DNA from: Natronococcus sp. CG52
Lineage (GTDB): Archaea; Halobacteriota; Halobacteria; Halobacteriales; Natrialbaceae
Length of the DNA: 64,000 nucleotides
Reading direction: 5' to 3'
Assembly: GCF_023913515.1 (NCBI RefSeq)
Contig: NZ_CP099391.1
Location: forward strand, 2,480,001 to 2,544,000
The notes under the pieces were generated by a model. It had not been told where the DNA came from. It was given only the letters and a program-made list of their open reading frames with translations, and did not search any database. This document shows, piece by piece, positions 8,468 through 46,914 of this stretch; within the stretch, counting starts at the first letter, position 1; the number at the start of each line of letters is the position of its first letter. A program made the position numbers and the translations under genes.

Positions 8468-8638
8468 TGTGGAGACTGCGCTCCCTGTAGATACGCCCGT
8501 ATCTGCAAAGCGCGTTCGCCAGATGTAGTCTGGCGGGCTGTCAGACTCTTCGAGTCTGACAACGTCGTGGAAACAGGAGGCCCCACCCTCATAGAGCGAA
8601 CGGCGTCAGCCGTGAGCGAGTAGGGTGGGGTAGTTCAC
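8468..8638 (+). pseudogene. tnpB 3'-end remnant with omega RNA/right-end hairpin
   Basis: It begins at GTGGAGACTGCGCTCC, which matches the codons for VETAL near the C-terminus of other tnpB copies here. It continues through two inserted palindromes (CGCCAGA/TCTGGCG and TGTCAGACTC/GAGTCTGACA) to the terminal hairpin with arms CCCCACCC (8581-8588) and GGGTGGGG (8623-8630), ending TAGTTCAC at 8638. The rest of tnpB is gone. A solo end of this kind could still be transcribed as an omega-RNA-like molecule with 8639 onward as guide, but no promoter is evident. Confidence 0.65.
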
Positions 8639-18022: not shown

Positions 18023-18076
18023 GGTGAACAGCCTCGGGGTCAAGCCCCGAGGCACTCGGCCTGCCCCGCCTGTAGA
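18023..18076 (+). repeat. Palindromic element PE1, copy B (in-frame insertion)
   Basis: A 54-bp element: GGTGAACA, stem GCCTCGGGG (18031-18039), loop TCAAG, stem CCCCGAGGC (18045-18053), tail ACTCGGCCTGCCCCGCC, TGTAGA. It is open in the rhodanese frame, encoding about 16 residues (NSLGVKPRGTRPAPPV), between MQPAEAV and DQRENVF. It lies opposite in orientation to copy A relative to its host gene. Confidence 0.7.
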
Positions 18077-21712: not shown

Positions 21713-21975
21713 GAACTACCCTACCCTACCGCTCGCCTGACGGCTCGCGCTTGAGAGGAGAGCTTCCTGTTTCCACGACGTTGTCAGACTCTTCGAGTCT
21801 GACAGCCCGCCAGACTACATCTGGCGAACGCGCTTTGCAGATACGGACGTATCCACAGGGAGCGCAGTCTCCACAGGCGGTGATTCGGAGTGTCCCACTC
21901 CTACGTTCTTGATACCGCGAGAAAGGATGTTCTATGCAGCATTCGCGTCCCTATCCGCCGTGAAACCACAAGCAG
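21713..21975 (-). pseudogene. tnpB 3'-end remnant with inserted palindromes and right end
   Basis: The minus strand reads CGFTADRDANAA*NILSRGIKNVGVGHSESPPVETALPVDTSVSAKRVRQM*. This is the C-terminal zinc/RuvC-III part of TnpB with a nonsense mutation at the usual Trp. It then passes through the palindromes TCTGGCG/CGCCAGA and TGTCAGACTC/GAGTCTGACA and a decayed terminal hairpin to TAGTTCAC (21718-21711). It is the same arrangement as the copies at 8468 and 36328. From 21976 to 22284 nothing else is clear. Confidence 0.7.
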
Positions 21976-22915: not shown

Positions 22916-24172
22916 ATGATGTACAGCCCCCGCTTCCGCCTGCTCCCCACCACGGAGCAACGCGAAGCGATGGACTGGACACGAAACATCGTGCGGCAAA
23001 CCTACAACCACGCACTCCGCGAATTCAACCAGATACCCGAGGACACCGGGACGCTCCGCCAGCGTGTCTGGAGTGTGCGAGACACGCTTCCAGCGATGAA
23101 AGACTGGTGGCCCGACCTCAAACAAGTCTACTCCACCGTCCTCCAGAAAGCCGTCGAGCGCATCCGCGACAACATCCAGAACCTCGGAAAGCTCAAGGCC
23201 AAAGGCTACGACGTGGGGTCGTTGAACTGGAAGAAACCGCGAGAGTACAGGAGTTTCACGTACCGGCAATCGGGCTTCGAACTCGACAAGAAGAGTGGCC
23301 CAAACGGACGCGGACTCCTCATCCTCAAAAAACTCAAAGGCGAAACCCGCGAAATCCCAATTCGCCTTCATCGCGACCTTCCAGACCACGAGCAAATCAA
23401 AGAAGTCACGCTCAAGAAAGGACCCACGGGAGCGTGGTACGTCTCGTTCTGCATCAAAACAGAAGCTCTCGAGAAACCCGCTCCTGAGGACATCGGCTCC
23501 GACGACGCGGTGGGTCTCGACCTCGGCGTTCTCAACTTCGTCCATGACTCGGACGGACGCTCGGTTGGGCGACTCGACCTCTCGGCTGACCGCGAGCGCC
23601 TTGAACGCGAGCAACGCTCGCTTTCCCGCAAAGACTACGAGTCGAAAAACTGGGATAAACAACGCCGGAGGGTCGCAAAAGTCCACGCACGGATGTCGAA
23701 CAAGAAGCGTGATTACAAGCACAAACTCGCGCACTTTTACACCACGGAGTACGACGCCGTGTTCGTCGAAGACCTGAACGTCAAGGGAATACTTGAATCG
23801 CCACAGAATGCGCGGAACAAGGCCGAGGTGGGCTGGCGAGACTTCATCACCATTCTCAACCACCACGGTGAGAAGAACGCCTGCCACGTCGAAGAAGTCG
23901 AACCCGAAGGAACGACGAAAGAATGCGCCTCGTGTGGTGTTTCAACGTGGAAACCCATCTGGGTACGCGAGCATTCCTGCCCGAGTTGTGGATTTGAACT
24001 TGACAGGGACTGGAACGCGTCGTTAAACGTTCTTTCCCGGGGACTGGACAAACTAGGAGTGGTTCACTCCGAAGACACGCCCGTGGAGACTGCGACCAAT
24101 GTGGATTCCTTTGTGGTATCTGCAAGTCGCGTCGTTGAAGCGGGAAGCCCCGCCCTCAAGGAGCCTGCGTAG
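22916..24172 (+). CDS. tnpB: TnpB, RNA-guided nuclease of an IS1341-type element (intact)
   Basis: 418 residues, full length. The N-terminal OrfB-type helix-turn-helix region begins YSPRFRLLPTTEQREAMDWTRN. RuvC-I Asp202 lies in AVGLDLGVLNF, RuvC-II Glu285 in VFVEDLNVKG, and the zinc finger is C337xxC340 with C355xxC358 (KECASCG, HSCPSCG). RuvC-III Asp365 lies in DRDWNAS. All catalytic residues are present, so an active nuclease is possible. TnpB proteins of this group cut DNA guided by an omega RNA made from the element's 3' end. No tnpA is nearby. The last codons (EAGSPALKEP) run into the right-end hairpin. Another frame starts at 22903 but is a shadow. Confidence 0.9.
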   Translation: MMYSPRFRLLPTTEQREAMDWTRNIVRQTYNHALREFNQIPEDTGTLRQRVWSVRDTLPAMKDWWPDLKQVYSTVLQKAVERIRDNIQNLGKLKAKGYDVGSLNWKKPREYRSFTYRQSGFELDKKSGPNGRGLLILKKLKGETREIPIRLHRDLPDHEQIKEVTLKKGPTGAWYVSFCIKTEALEKPAPEDIGSDDAVGLDLGVLNFVHDSDGRSVGRLDLSADRERLEREQRSLSRKDYESKNWDKQRRRVAKVHARMSNKKRDYKHKLAHFYTTEYDAVFVEDLNVKGILESPQNARNKAEVGWRDFITILNHHGEKNACHVEEVEPEGTTKECASCGVSTWKPIWVREHSCPSCGFELDRDWNASLNVLSRGLDKLGVVHSEDTPVETATNVDSFVVSASRVVEAGSPALKEPA

Positions 24173-25568: not shown

Positions 25569-26708
25569 ATGATCGAACGACACGACACCGTCATCATCGG
25601 CGGCGGCCAGGCAGGACTGGCGACCGGGTACTACCTGCAGCAGCACGACCAGGACTTTGTCATCCTTGACGCGAGCGACCGTGTCGGCGACGCATGGCGG
25701 GCCCGCTGGGACTCCCTCCAGATGTTCACGCCCGCCAGTTATTCGAGCCTGCCGGGGATGGACTTTCCGGGCGCACCGTACGCCTTCCCCACAAAAGACG
25801 AGGTGGCCGATTACCTGGAGACCTACACCCAGCGGTTCGACCTGCCCGTCGAACTCGGCGTCCGCGTGGACGGGCTGGAACGGAGCGGCGATGACTTGCT
25901 CGTCACCGCGGGCGACCGACGGATTGAGACGGACAACGTCGTGGTGGCGATGGCGAGCTATCAGATCCCGAAGGTCCCAGATTTCGCGGCGGAGCTCTCC
26001 GACGACATCGTCCAGCTGCACACGAGCGACTACCGCAATCCCAATCAGCTCCAGGACGGGGACGTGCTCGTCGTCGGGGCGGGCAACTCCGGTGCCGAGA
26101 TCGCCCTCGACGTCGCCTACGAGCACGAAACGTGGCTGTCGGGCCGGGACGTCGGCCACGTGCCGTTCCACATCGACTCGTGGGTCGGCCGTCACCTCGG
26201 GGTCCCGTTCGTAATGCGCGTGCTCTTCCACCGGATCTTCACAACGGGGACGCCGATCGGGCGCCGTATCCGCCCGAAGGTGCTCTCACAGGGCGGCCCG
26301 CTAGTGCGCACGAAGCCGAGTGACCTGGCCGCAGCCGGCGTCGAGCGGGTGCCTCGCATGACCGGCGTCCGCGACGGTCGCCCCGTTGTCGGGGACGATG
26401 ACGTTCTCGACGTCGAGAACGTCATCTGGTGCACTGGCTTCCGCCCTGACTTTTCATGGATAGACCTCCCGATCTTCGACGGGAAGGAACAGCCCAAGGA
26501 GCCCGTCCACGTGCGCGGCGTCGTCCCGGACGAGCCAGGACTGTACTTCGTCGGCCTATTCTTCCTGTACGCGATGACGTCGGGGCTGTTCACCGGCGTC
26601 GGCAGGGATGCGGAGTATGTCGTCGACCACCTGACGTCGACGGCGCGGCAGCAGCCGCCTCGGCCGAGCTACACGGGATCGGTGGACGGACTTCCACAGC
26701 AGTCGTAG
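25569..26708 (+). CDS. FAD/NADPH-dependent flavoprotein monooxygenase-like oxidoreductase
   Basis: 379 residues. FAD-binding GGGQAGLA (about 11-18) lies in TVIIGGGQAGLATGYYL. The second dinucleotide site GAGNSGAE (about 171-178) lies in VLVVGAGNSGAEIALDV. FxPxxYxxLPG and the late motif VIWCTGFRPDFSWIDLP are typical of the YhiN/CzcO and flavin-containing monooxygenase group. It is a soluble enzyme of unknown substrate; homologues act on N, S or carbonyl compounds. The upstream HTH gene may regulate it. Confidence 0.8.
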   Translation: MIERHDTVIIGGGQAGLATGYYLQQHDQDFVILDASDRVGDAWRARWDSLQMFTPASYSSLPGMDFPGAPYAFPTKDEVADYLETYTQRFDLPVELGVRVDGLERSGDDLLVTAGDRRIETDNVVVAMASYQIPKVPDFAAELSDDIVQLHTSDYRNPNQLQDGDVLVVGAGNSGAEIALDVAYEHETWLSGRDVGHVPFHIDSWVGRHLGVPFVMRVLFHRIFTTGTPIGRRIRPKVLSQGGPLVRTKPSDLAAAGVERVPRMTGVRDGRPVVGDDDVLDVENVIWCTGFRPDFSWIDLPIFDGKEQPKEPVHVRGVVPDEPGLYFVGLFFLYAMTSGLFTGVGRDAEYVVDHLTSTARQQPPRPSYTGSVDGLPQQS

Positions 26709-34257: not shown

Positions 34258-35418
34258 ATGCCTCGGTCGTCTCCCTCCTCCGACGATTCATCCGCCCGTG
34301 ACGCCGAGCCAGCCGACTCGGACGCTGGCGACGCCCCGTACAGAGCAGTGTCCACGACGCGGCGGCGATATCTCGCACTCGCAGGCGTCGGTCTCTCCGC
34401 AACCACTGCTGGGTGTGCCTCGACGGAGTCCGACGGCTCACCAACGGGATCTGGAATTCCGGAGTCGGCCGATGACACGTCCTCCGACCCAGAGATCGCC
34501 GAGCGTGGCACGGCGAGCAACGACGACGATAGGGAGTCCGACGACGATACGGAACCGGATGACGATGCTGACCCGGAGTCCATCGACGACCTCCCGCTGT
34601 TCGACGCGCACACGCACATCGTTCCGACGGAAGCGCGGGGTCGCGACCCGCTTTCGACCGACGAACTCGTCGACTGGATGGATGCCACCGGCATCGATCG
34701 TGCGGTCGTCCTCCCGTTCGAGTATCCCGAGAGCTATCCGGTCCAGGCACCGACCTCGTTGGTGCTCGAGGAGGTCGCGGCGTATCCCGACCGCCTCGTT
34801 CCCTTCTGCGCGGTCGATCCGCGAAACGTCGACGGCGAGGACGCCGCTGCACTCCTCGAGCGCTACATCGACCGCGGCGCCCGCGGATTCGGCGAGCTCA
34901 AAATCGAGCTGGCCGTCGACGACGCCCGCCTCGAGCCGCTCTACGAGCTCTGTGCGTCCTACGAGTTACCGATCCTCTTTCATACCGACCAGCAGTCGAT
35001 GCGGGACGAGGTCGGCCTCCCGCGACTCGAGAGCGTGCTCGCCTCGTATCCCGAGGTCGATTTCATCGCGCACGCCCACGGGTGGTGGTCGCACATGGCC
35101 GCAGACGTCGCGCCGCGAGATCTCGGCACCATCCCGGAAGGGTCGATCGAGGCACCTGGCCGCATCTGGGAGCTGCTTGGGAGGTACGACAACATCTACG
35201 GCGACCTCTCCACGCTGGGAGGCTGGAACGCGCTGACCCGCGACCACGAGTACGGGCAGGCGTTGCTCGAGTCGCACCACGACCAGCTCGTGTTCGGGAG
35301 TGACTACCTCTTTCCCGGCCAGCAGGTGCCACTCGTCGCCCTGTTCGAACGGTTCGAGCTCGAGCTCGATGCGTGGGCGAATATCCGGTCTCGAAACATC
35401 GAGAACCTGCTTCGCTGA
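34258..35418 (+). CDS. Secreted amidohydrolase-family lipoprotein
   Basis: 386 residues. After 34 polar residues comes TTRRRYLALAGVGLSATTAGCAS, a Tat signal with lipobox (Cys57), then an acidic Asp/Glu/Ser stalk. The catalytic part is an amidohydrolase_2 TIM barrel: FDAHTHI metal ligands, GFGELKIE, LFHTDQQ, FIAHAHGWW and FGSDYLFPGQ, the usual HxH...H...H...D set. Most relatives (aminocarboxymuconate decarboxylase-like) are cytoplasmic, so a surface-anchored form is unusual. The substrate is unknown. Its end abuts a tnpB relic. Confidence 0.8.
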   Translation: MPRSSPSSDDSSARDAEPADSDAGDAPYRAVSTTRRRYLALAGVGLSATTAGCASTESDGSPTGSGIPESADDTSSDPEIAERGTASNDDDRESDDDTEPDDDADPESIDDLPLFDAHTHIVPTEARGRDPLSTDELVDWMDATGIDRAVVLPFEYPESYPVQAPTSLVLEEVAAYPDRLVPFCAVDPRNVDGEDAAALLERYIDRGARGFGELKIELAVDDARLEPLYELCASYELPILFHTDQQSMRDEVGLPRLESVLASYPEVDFIAHAHGWWSHMAADVAPRDLGTIPEGSIEAPGRIWELLGRYDNIYGDLSTLGGWNALTRDHEYGQALLESHHDQLVFGSDYLFPGQQVPLVALFERFELELDAWANIRSRNIENLLR

Positions 35419-35489
35419 ACCGACGGTTGGGGCAAAGACATTCACAGAGCGACGCTATCGTCCTGTTCGATACCACATCGTTCGACACC

Positions 35490-36389
35490 ATGGAGAGAAC
35501 AGGCGAGGGGTTCGGCAAGTCCGACGGCGCTGCACTCAAACAGGTCACGCTCAAGAAGGAGCCGACGGGCGAGTGGTTCGCCACGTTCGGCGTTGAAATC
35601 GAACGAGAGCCGCCAGAGAAACCCGACCGGCCGAAGAACGCCGTCGGGATCGACGTGGGTATCCTCAAGTACGCCCACGACACTGACGGCCACGCAATCG
35701 AATCGGTCGACCTTTCGGACGAACGCGATCGCCTCGAGCGAGAGCAACGGAAACTCTCACGCAAAGAGCACGGCTCGAACAACTACGAGAAGCAACAGCG
35801 AGTCGCCGCCAAACGTCACGCCGACCTGAAGCGGAAGCGCCGGGACTTCTTGCATAAACTCTCGAACTACTACGCACGAGAGTACGACCTCGTGGCTGTC
35901 GAAGATCTCGATGCGAAGGGGCTGGTCGAACTCGACGGCAACTCTCGAAACCGCGCCGGAGCGGCGTGGGGAACGTTCCTGCGAATGTTTGAATAAGAGT
36001 GCGAACGCGAAGGGACGCACTTCGTGGCTGTCGATCCAGCCGGAACGACCAAAGAGTGTGCGGCCTGTGGTGTCTCGACCGACAAACCGCTGTGGGTCCG
36101 CGAACGCTCGTGTCCGTCGTGCGGGTTCACGGCGGACAGGGATTGGAACGCGGCCTGGAACATTCTTTCTCGCGGGATCAAGCAAGTAGGAGCGGGACGC
36201 TCCGAATCAACGTCCTCAGAATCGTTCTGCGATTCTGATGTCGAGGCGAATCTCCGATTCGCCGACCATTGGAGAGCTTTGCTCTCCAAGAGGCTGCGAA
36301 AATCGCTTCGCGATTTTCGAACGCCTGTGGAGACTGCGCTCCCTACGGGAACCACTTCGATTCCTGCACAGCGCGTTCGCCAGATGTAG
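35490..36389 (+). pseudogene. tnpB relic: N-terminus lost, internal stop, hairpins inserted
   Basis: Homology to the intact TnpB starts at about its residue 158 (QVTLKKEPTGEWFATFGVE). RuvC-I (GIDVGILKYAHD) and RuvC-II (LVAVEDLDAKG) follow, then a stop in FE*ECEREGTHF at 35994, where other TnpBs have Tyr. The zinc finger CAACG...CPSCG and RuvC-III (DRDWNAAWNIL) are kept. After KQVGAGRSESTSSES the frame passes through four inserted hairpins (36216-36319) and resumes with TPVETALP in phase. It is inactive as a nuclease. Confidence 0.85.
36216..36319 (+). repeat. Four tandem short-loop hairpins inside a tnpB relic
   Basis: In order: TCAGAATCG-TTCTG-CGATTCTGA (36216-36238), GGCGAATC-TCC-GATTCGCC (36245-36263), TTGGAGAGC-TTT-GCTCTCCAA (36269-36289), CGAAAATCGC-TTC-GCGATTTTCG (36297-36319). 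All stems are perfect, three loops are 3 nt, and spacers are 5-7 nt. None occurs at the same place in the other tnpB copies. Confidence 0.85.
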
Positions 36390-36491
36390 TCTGGCGGGCT
36401 GTCAGACTCTTCGAGTCTGACAACGTCCTCGAAGCAGGAAGCCCCACCCTCAAGGAGCGAGCCGCCAGGCGAGCGGTAGGGTGGGTAGTTC
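36328..36491 (+). ncRNA. Expanded omega-RNA/right end of the tnpB relic
   Basis: It runs from GTGGAGACTGCGCTCC through CGCCAGA-TGTAG-TCTGGCG (36378-36396) and TGTCAGACTC-TTC-GAGTCTGACA (36400-36422) to the terminal hairpin with arms CCCCACCC (36442-36449) and GGGTGGG (36478-36484), ending GTAGTTCAC. The middle two palindromes are shared with the relics at 8468 and 21713 but missing from the intact element, where CGCGTC runs straight into GTTGAAGCGGG. Confidence 0.6.
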
Positions 36492-36528
36492 ACCTATCGA
36501 CTCTCACGGCCGCTTGCTGGCCGTCGGT

Positions 36529-37128
36529 CTAGATGCCAAGCCACTCGTCGTTCCGGACCTCATACCCGTTCGTCCGGCAGAACTTCGCCGCTTGCCGGCG
36601 TACCGCCCGGGAACCCGGGAGTTTTTCTTTGTCGCTGATTTGCTCAACGATCCAGTCGCTGATGGCTTGGATTCCCTCATCGTCGTCATCGGCGTCGATT
36701 GCTTTGAGTTCCCGAAACGTTTTCTCGTAGCCTTTGCGCTGTGACTCACGGAGATCCGTGTTTGGGAGGGTTCCGGTGGCTTCTACGACTCGTTTCATAG
36801 CCGCAGCGACTGTCGGCCGCTGTACTCGCATTCGGACGGCAAACGGGGAGTCGAACGTCTCCGCGTCTGTCTCCGGAACGAATTCCTCGACAGTGTAGCT
36901 CCCGTCGTCTGCTTCGACTTTGCGGTCGCCGATCACCGCGACGACCTCCGACCCCGTTGCCGGGAATTCCAGCGATTCGAGTTCCGAATCGAAATCGGCG
37001 AGCTCTCCCGAGTCAACCGGCGGCTCTGTTTCGTCCCCTCGTTCCAGTTCCGCGGCAACGTCGCGCTCTCGCTGGCGTCTGTCGGCGTCGCGTGCTTGCT
37101 TCTCTCGGCCGCGCTTGTCGTCTGCCAT
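36529..37128 (-). CDS. Haloarchaeal DUF5789-like protein
   Basis: 199 residues. The start MADDKRGREKQARDADRRQRERD is a charged helix. An acidic linker, a beta region (FPATGSEVVAVIGDRKVEADDGSYTVEEFVPET), a conserved RVQRPTVAAAMKRVVEA helix and the end EKLPGSRAVRRQAAKFCRTNGYEVRNDEWLGI follow. It is highly similar in layout to a conserved haloarchaeal family of unknown function. Cytosolic and monocistronic. I am sure of the family feel, less so of the DUF number. Confidence 0.65.
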   Translation of the reverse strand: MADDKRGREKQARDADRRQRERDVAAELERGDETEPPVDSGELADFDSELESLEFPATGSEVVAVIGDRKVEADDGSYTVEEFVPETDAETFDSPFAVRMRVQRPTVAAAMKRVVEATGTLPNTDLRESQRKGYEKTFRELKAIDADDDDEGIQAISDWIVEQISDKEKLPGSRAVRRQAAKFCRTNGYEVRNDEWLGI

Positions 37129-38414: not shown

Positions 38415-38524
38415 CGTGAACCGCCTCGGGGTCAAGTGGTTCGAGACGCCAAAGGCGTCTCGTCATCACGGAAATCGAAGATTTCCGAACGACCCCGTGG
38501 CACTCGGCCTGCTCCGCCTGTAGA
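38415..38524 (+). repeat. Palindromic element PE1, copy C (expanded by nested hairpins)
   Basis: Outer sequence GTGAACCGCCTCGGGGTCAA and CCCCGTGGCACTCGGCCTGC, CCGCCTGTAGA matches copy B (18023-18076). In place of its 5-nt loop there are two nested perfect hairpins: GAGACGCC-AAA-GGCGTCTC (38443-38461) and CGGAAATC-GAA-GATTTCCG (38469-38487). Length is 110 bp against 54. The reverse strand stays open across it in frame with the 38245 fragment. Confidence 0.75.
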
Positions 38525-46078: not shown

Positions 46079-46914
46079 GCTCTTACGCAAAGCTACGGAA
46101 ACAGCAGAGGGCAAAGCAATCGATAAGTGCGAAGATCGACGCATCGATTTTGTTCAACGACCGGACGCGGCGAAGGTATGAGCGGCCTGTTCCAAGCTTC
46201 GCTTGGAACAGGCCGCGGAACTTCCGCAGCCACGGGTGCAAGAGTGACGACAGACACTTAACCTAGTTAATGTGGACGCCGTCCGGCGAAACATACCGTC
46301 TTCATGGATGACCGTCCGGTGGTCGTAGTCCATCCAGCGATACGCCTGAAGCGCATCGGTCCAGACCACTCCCAGCCGCTGGGAGAGGTCTTCAGCTTCC
46401 TGAATTACCGGACCAAGGTCATCCTCGTAGCGGATTCCTTTCTTTGCGCGAATGACAGTGAGATCGTCGCGGCAGGCCGCGACGAGCATCAGTTGATCAC
46501 CGTGACGTCCCTGTCATCATGTGCGTCCCCGAGACGACCCGCCGCGACCCCATCCGGGCCGCGGCGGGTCGTGGCCTTTGTATCCCGAGCATACTTTCCT
46601 ACTCTCATCGATTTGTAAGGCGTCACTGTGTAGCTGTTTGGGGTGATTCTATATCACGAATCTACGACACCAGACGGGATCAGCGGGCTTCCACGTTCTC
46701 ATCGTCCGATTTCCGCACCGAGGGCACGGTGTGTGCTTCTGAATCTATTTGAGGCGCCGCTCGACACCCTCGTCAAGCGGCTCGGTCCGAAGCTCTAAGA
46801 TACCACGGCCGATTAGTTTTCGAAGCATTCCGCCGAAGGTTGGCTGGGTTTTGGACATCTCCACTATATACGTCGGTGGGGTGCACTGAATTTTCCGTAG
46901 CTTTGCGTAAGAGC
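46079..46914 (-). mobile_element. IS1595-like insertion sequence, decayed
   Basis: An 836-bp element with perfect 23-bp terminal inverted repeats (46079-46101 and 46892-46914, outer sequence GCTCTTACGCAAAGC). No flanking duplication is visible. The minus strand encodes transposase pieces: MSKTQPTFGGMLRKLIGRGI, zinc ribbon CPRCGNRTMRTWK...WCRRF, VIRAKKGIRYEDDLGPVIQEAEDL, WTDALQAYRWMDYDHRTVIHEDGMF, and a C-terminal GVHIN...LLHPWLRKFRGL, with several stops and frameshifts. The family is judged from the zinc ribbon and the DGMF/HIN pattern. It marks the start of the AT-rich glycan block. Confidence 0.7.
46182..46216 (-). repeat. Perfect 16-bp hairpin with TTC loop in the transposase relic
   Basis: Arm GCGGCCTGTTCCAAGC (46182-46197), loop TTC, and the exact complement (46201-46216). 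The related intact protein would read FRGLSKQGLEQA here, itself an imperfect palindrome. The relic has one extra base, which both perfects the stem and shifts the frame. Confidence 0.7.

Follow-up and report, generated by a model that had tools for sequence, protein, structure and literature searches.

Double-hairpin modules at the omegaRNA-type end of a haloarchaeal tnpB relic, probably copies of a short mobile DNA element

Hairpin modules in the tnpB relics of the window

The DNA analysed in this study, a 64-kb stretch of a Natronococcus genome (the window), contains a tnpB relic in which the N-terminus is missing and the frame is interrupted by a TAA at 35994-35996 (Table 1). The initial annotation had described four perfect hairpins, three of them with 3-nt loops, placed in frame between the SES and TPVET residues of this relic. 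Our data agree with both points: the four hairpins (HP1 to HP4) are present at 36216-36319 with loops of 5, 3, 3 and 3 nt, and the 111-nt addition that contains them (36213-36323) preserves the TPVETALP reading frame downstream. Two extra hairpins on the 3' side had been overlooked. The six hairpins form pairs, and each pair is one double-hairpin (DH) module of about 46-60 nt; the relic locus at 36213-36426 therefore holds three DH modules, namely one at a position termed site A, one nested inside the spacer of the site-A module, and one at a position termed site B. The 111-nt insertion is flanked on both sides by AACG (36209-36212 and 36320-36323), and it consists of a 60-nt-type module with a 51-nt module in its spacer, the deletion of which leaves exactly the TGGGCTG spacer of relatives. 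Empty site B in relatives reads gcgcgt^cctcgaagcagg, where ^ marks the junction.

Table 1. Position of the tnpB-associated features and hairpins in the window
Feature	Coordinates	Strand	Remarks
tnpB relic: OrfB_IS605 part and C-terminal zinc ribbon	35481..36389	+	tail stop TAG at 36387-36389
Site-A insertion, 111 nt: outer DH module (HP1 and HP4) with inner module nested	36213..36323	+	
HP1	36216-36238		perfect 9-bp stem, 5-nt loop
HP2	36245-36263		perfect 8-bp stem, 3-nt loop
HP3	36269-36289		perfect 9-bp stem, 3-nt loop
HP4	36297-36319		perfect 10-bp stem, 3-nt loop
Nested DH module, 51 nt: HP2 and HP3	36241..36291	+	excision gives the spacer of relatives
Site-B DH module, 50 nt	36377..36426	+	hairpins 36378-36396 and 36400-36422
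Conserved right end, predicted omegaRNA-type hairpin CCCCACCCT..AGGGTGGG	36427..36493	+	terminus GTAGTTCAC
Site-B DH module of the second tnpB relic	8517..8561	+	identical or nearly so
Site-B DH module of the third tnpB relic	21782..21826	-	one loop different
DH module of another subfamily, 56 nt	38437..38492	.	within the loop of a tnpB-type right-end hairpin

The hairpins had also been said to be absent from the intact TnpB and the two other relics of the window, which was only partly confirmed. Sites A and B are both empty in the intact TnpB (22916-24172), and site A is empty in the relic at 21.8 kb; the relic near 8.5 kb is truncated before it reaches site A. Conversely, the site-B pair (36378-36422) is also found in both of these relics. 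The remaining module of Table 1 lies in a host hairpin that ends with GTTCAC on the minus strand and has an empty form at 18031-18053, and all module copies recognised within the window are located in tnpB-type ends.

The window contains 8 adjacent-hairpin pairs compared with a mean of 0.25 in 20 Markov-1 simulations, and the fold of 36180-36500 scored z = -6.2 with RNA and z = -8.2 with DNA parameters against dinucleotide shuffles. A reading of the hairpins as transcription terminators was rejected, as the sole terminator-like site in 35900-36900 was at 36606 and none fell on the hairpins. Two other hairpins of the window were recorded: an isolated perfect 16-bp hairpin with a TTC loop (GCGGCCTGTTCCAAGC-ttc-GCTTGGAACAGGCCGC) at 46182-46216, outside any module, and a 13-bp perfect hairpin at 26397-26426 within a flavoprotein-like ORF (25569-26708).

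Site A and the omegaRNA-type end in haloarchaeal tnpB copies

The comparison of site A began from 117 loci, of which 13 had no anchor, and one locus (L094) was removed from the filled class as a regex artefact. Among the 97 haloarchaeal tnpB copies with usable anchors, 35 were filled and 62 were empty at site A, a ratio that is not a prevalence, as the set was ranked by similarity to an insert-bearing query. The empty site reads gaatcaacg^cctgtgg or a near variant, and the typical insertion in relatives is a single hairpin pair of 57 nt (n = 21) or 60 nt (n = 8); inserts of 111 nt (n = 2, the window relic and paralog L003) and 42 nt (n = 1) also occurred. The reading frame is kept in 32 of the 35 filled copies, the insert being a multiple of three, and the other three inserts belong to a third subfamily and are out of frame. 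Different stem families occupy site A, which is filled at the same position in distant hosts.

Whether a copy is filled or empty bears no relation to tnpB phylogeny. In a tree of the tnpB DNA upstream of site A, a quick build with long branches, the status required 28 changes compared with a mean of 28.8 after shuffling (222 of 500 shuffles were as low), and the well-supported branches alone forced at least 18 changes. Two alignments (A1 and A2) were excluded for being too gappy or having too few sequences. At the closest range, a filled (L038) and an empty (L052) Natronorubrum copy shared 995 of 1000 upstream nucleotides. The site-A insert could also pass from one tnpB copy to another by recombination, with no need for fresh transposition.

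Concerning the structure of the 3' end, the consensus fold of 32 empty copies, drawn from the 55 extracted, comprised 37 pairs, 12 of which showed changes on both sides, arranged as an outer helix, an inner helix with a hairpin, and the right-end hairpin. On the basis of this conserved and structured model, the tnpB end appears to be of the omegaRNA type. Site A is an unpaired linker directly 5' of the outer helix, whereas sites B and C lie within helices, and the core omegaRNA scaffold as modelled need not change upon site-A insertion. Haloarchaeal omegaRNAs are described as expressed and processed in Halobacterium, and the Rfam sotRNA families RF02656 and RF02657 are named there for omegaRNA (PMC12558985, in the portions available). 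With the Rfam covariance models, neither 35400-36600 nor the window as a whole nor the tnpB ends of 13 loci produced a hit at E<=1.

Architecture, signature and distribution of the modules

The DH unit follows a common plan: T(C/T), a perfect hairpin, a spacer of 3-10 nt, a second perfect hairpin, and (G/A)A(C). A short repeated target word, which is CG, GG or CA and, at site A of the window, AACG, likely lies outside the unit in most cases. Beyond site A, modules recur at site B, at site C inside the right-end helix, at the tnpB 5' end, and within both the zinc ribbon and the TnpB coding region; the 5'-end copies were found in both orientations. The length was a multiple of three in 12 of 16 distinct 5'-end copies as well; therefore, the preservation of the frame at site A partly reflects just the usual unit length.

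Read by eye, filled/empty sites are flanked by AACG or CG in the case of site A, by CG where the module lies at the 5' end, by GG within the TnpB coding region and the zinc ribbon, and by CA at site C, and no flanking duplication was seen in the third subfamily (AAG^CCCC, AACG^CCTG). The left flank is mostly CGTC or CGTT, its CG part changing to GG or CA according to the target. In a mechanical search, a dinucleotide was repeated close to the ends of 112 of 152 distinct modules, and this was CG in 93; placement was free and there was no control, and a target duplication is therefore likely although unproven.

The paralog L003, located on another replicon of the same genome, shows the same nesting as the window relic. 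All four loops or tips differ between the two, whereas in the stems hardly more than one compensatory exchange, T-A to C-G, separates the two copies, indicating that the loops turn over faster than the stems. Loop inversion was rejected as the source of this turnover, since 11 reverse-complement pairs were found against 9.0 expected among 104 close pairs.

The loops and stems bear a distinct signature. Loops of 3 nt were found in 100 of 129 distinct module hairpins; 81 of these 100 were R-N-A or its complement and 97 had a C-G closing pair, compared with 57 and 177, respectively, among 357 isolated 3-nt-loop hairpins from 1.59 Mb. In DNA, triloops of the C(GNA)G type have exceptionally high stability. 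Among the 57 loops at site A, R-N-A occurred 20 times on the tnpB sense strand and 19 times on the antisense strand, and the stem pairs comprised 617 Watson-Crick, 3 G.U and 2 mismatched pairs, a count inflated by the choice or trimming of stems at mismatches for good pairing. As a selected RNA should favour one strand and tolerate G.U, the presence of triloops on either strand and of stems nearly without G.U points to folded DNA rather than selected RNA.

The DH module is not a part of tnpB, and within the sampled phylum it is nearly confined to Halobacteria. In 857 kb of the Natronococcus genome, 21 hairpin pairs were found compared with 1, 1, 0 and 2 in simulated sequences, many of them at places free of tnpB. 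The stem variant YCAGAAATCNNNGATTTCTGR was carried by 148 of 292 Halobacteria genomes, spread over 54 of 77 genera, and the reversed control gave 0 matches. Of the 277 genomes with an OrfB_IS605 match 144 carried it, as did 4 of the 15 that lacked such a match. Sampled across the phylum, it was present in 17 of the 33 genomes as close as the same order and in one of the other 163. The lone match to the haloarchaeal hairpin pattern beyond order-level relatives came from G335, of the same phylum, and could be transfer or contamination. At loci chosen by the pattern, tblastn found tnpB at 6 of 32, with a narrow set of 13 queries, two of which were the longest ORFs of their loci and perhaps not TnpB; other TnpB families may have escaped. 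In haloarchaeal plasmids, two module queries matched 49 and 53 records; no annotated feature lay under 36 of 38 and 39 of 40 of these matches among the listed rows with annotation, figures that come from an incomplete gene table, with 9 and 13 records outside the listing. The phage records searched gave no match to the module, and no DH pair was present in the H. walsbyi plasmid PL47 (46.9 kb). Genome G017, which had no match to the tnpB end of the window, no Y1 match and 0 hairpin-pattern matches, contained 6 hairpin pairs in 400 kb compared with 2, 3 and 2 simulated, and on visual inspection none of the 6 had the features of a module.

Because most greedy ORFs in GC-rich DNA are spurious, ORF overlap was dropped as a measure of coding insertions; the case for such insertions therefore rests on a gene with orthologs. 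In G112, a gene that we take to be an S9-type peptidase from its sequence carries two tandem units (114 nt) in frame with GACG on both sides, and the three closest orthologs, in G089, G263 and G218, are empty.

A probable mobile DNA element and its alternatives

The modules are recurrently present or absent at identical sites, nest within one another, lie at many unrelated sites and carry triloops of the DNA type. We consider it probable that each hairpin pair is a copy of a short haloarchaeal DNA element, mobile but non-autonomous, and not a remodelled guide scaffold. In the window relic, one unit would have inserted into the linker separating the zinc ribbon from the omegaRNA core, with a second unit inserting into that one and a third going to site B. 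The element may move as folded single-stranded or extruded DNA, with an enzyme supplied in trans cutting and joining it, and tnpB may retain copies because they are tolerated in the linker and do not shift the frame at the common lengths of 57 and 60. The omegaRNA from filled loci would then bear extra autonomous hairpins as a by-product.

A sub-case of this mobile-element explanation, which names the mobiliser, is a REP/BIME-like element moved in trans by an IS200/IS605-type Y1 (HUH) transposase or RAYT; we regard it as rather unlikely, at perhaps a quarter of our credence. The two hairpins with small tags, the CGTC-like left end and the frequency at IS200/IS605-type loci are in its favour, and hairpin presence is weakly linked to Y1 presence across 292 genomes, with hairpins in 111 of 201 genomes with Y1 and in 37 of 91 without it (Fisher p = 0.023, ignoring relatedness). 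However, those 37 genomes have hairpins and no Y1, and PF01797 (Y1 transposase; RAYT/TnpA) had 0 matches in the Natronococcus genome, although modules are numerous there. Furthermore, the likely small target duplications clash with the habit of the IS200/IS605 family, which to our knowledge makes no target duplication on insertion. IS605-type transposons are likewise described as producing none (PMC3119063, in the part available).

The initial annotation had proposed that the hairpins remodel the guide RNA together with the protein tail. An in-frame hairpin addition at the putative omegaRNA-coding end of tnpB, with an altered protein tail, is indeed what the sequence shows, and the proposal holds for the location of the additions but not for a selected function. 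That the hairpins were added and kept for changing the omegaRNA scaffold is improbable in our judgement. In its favour, sites A, B and C all lie within the omegaRNA-type end, 12 of the 37 consensus pairs show changes on both sides, and filled copies occur in stop-free TnpB frames of 428-482 aa (L009, L010, L011 and L013). Nevertheless, remodelling specific to tnpB does not fit modules that are abundant and mostly located outside tnpB, inserted either way round at one tnpB 5' site and once in the S9 peptidase; selection on the scaffold does not fit a DNA-triloop preference that is equal on both strands, a filled/empty state unclustered on the tree, a window copy that is a dead relic, and a site A in a single-stranded linker, where the core scaffold need not change.

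That most of the clade would carry these hairpins at this very position had been named beforehand as the finding that would speak against addition; in the copies compared, site A was filled in 35 of 97 without phylogenetic clustering. An ancestral feature of the tnpB clade that was lost repeatedly, to which the shared position across distant hosts would correspond, is highly improbable in view of the at least 18 changes forced, the several stem families at one site and the stems shared with copies at unrelated places. De novo palindromes arising by template switching in replication would agree with loops changing faster than stems, but we give them hardly any weight, as identical stem sequences recur in 148 of 292 genomes, the architecture is two-hairpin with flanking duplications, and loop inversion is not in excess.

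Returning to the mobile element, short palindromic mobile elements (REP, RPE, mitochondrial DHE and SMR) are already known in scattered lineages, and the literature search found no described two-hairpin family spanning Halobacteria. By description, the nearest published system in habit is SMR-A, a likeness that does not imply homology. The SMR-A repeats of Haloquadratum walsbyi (HqIRS42/43/55) measure about 110 bp, have terminal inverted repeats and produce no target duplication; they prefer IS605-type (tnpB) transposons and PATEs, insert in near-terminal palindromes, and their mobilisation is termed enigmatic (PMC3119063, in the part available). As so described, SMR-A resembles the DH modules in being haloarchaeal, tiny and non-coding, and the window module at 38437-38492 likewise sits in a right-end palindrome. 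However, DH units measure 46-60 nt and reach 111-114 only when nested or in tandem, and repeats of 2-4 nt flank DH modules at most filled/empty sites, with none in the third subfamily. PATEs, defined by near-terminal palindromes related to IS605 ends (PMC3119063, same part), are, like the DH modules, small palindrome-bearing mobile DNA of haloarchaea, but they carry IS605-type palindromes, whereas DH modules insert into such ends.

The CGTC-tagged REPs, described from bacterial species in the text available of PMC3733652, are small palindromes forming head-to-head dimers, in several families and with no dedicated transposase known. They share with DH modules the inverted palindrome pairs, the CGTC-like end and the several families, but differ, as described, in loops of 4-5 nt rather than mostly 3 nt and in dimer spacers mostly of 20-100 bp rather than about 3-10. 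Their tag (CGTC/TGTC/CCTC) is unpaired, and in the DH left flank the CG depends on the target. The genomic Y1 transposase expected of a GTAG-REP/RAYT system had no PF01797 match in the Natronococcus genome. Double-hairpin elements of fungal and other mitochondria, likened here by description, are similar in name, two-hairpin plan and mobility, but are organellar. Rickettsia palindromic elements (RPEs) are longer than DH modules. As partly described, they belong to another domain of life, whereas DH modules are two separate short hairpins, mostly without an annotated gene. RPEs are palindromic and lie in frame in protein genes (PMC3733652, same portion), a habit shared by 32 of the 35 site-A inserts and by the 114 nt of the S9 peptidase.

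A broader proposal, which we advance tentatively and hold to be more doubtful than not, is a class-wide Halobacteria element of two DNA hairpins with hyperstable purine-N-A triloops, a 2-bp-type target duplication and an enzyme acting on folded DNA, which homes to omegaRNA-coding tnpB ends, writes in-frame peptides and may damp or re-tune RNA-guided transposons. For the omegaRNA field, the data call for caution, as haloarchaeal scaffold annotations and TnpB tails contain mobile inserts, and the filled/empty pairs are ready-made experiments on scaffold tolerance. The DH family bears a clear DNA-hairpin signature, includes copies in nested and tandem form, and comes with natural pairs of filled and empty sites resolved to the single base, so that the question of what mobilises a minimal element becomes testable in genetically tractable haloarchaea.

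Three further arrangements were observed. At about 1450-1570 of L160 (genome G046), at least five different short-loop hairpins stand in tandem with aacgtcc/tgggc-type spacers, denser than any module. In G112, a pair type with one 6-nt loop, GTGCGGGCGAC..GTCGCCCGCAC tgcca GCGGGACC..GGTCCCGC, is repeated at L208:8773-8824, L209:3506-3558 and L225:15782-15833, and in this genus with many copies it is possibly a separate subfamily. Finally, two different modules, one of the site-C family, lie 18 nt apart outside tnpB at L159:17773-17889 of the Natronococcus genome itself (C1, about 177.8 kb).
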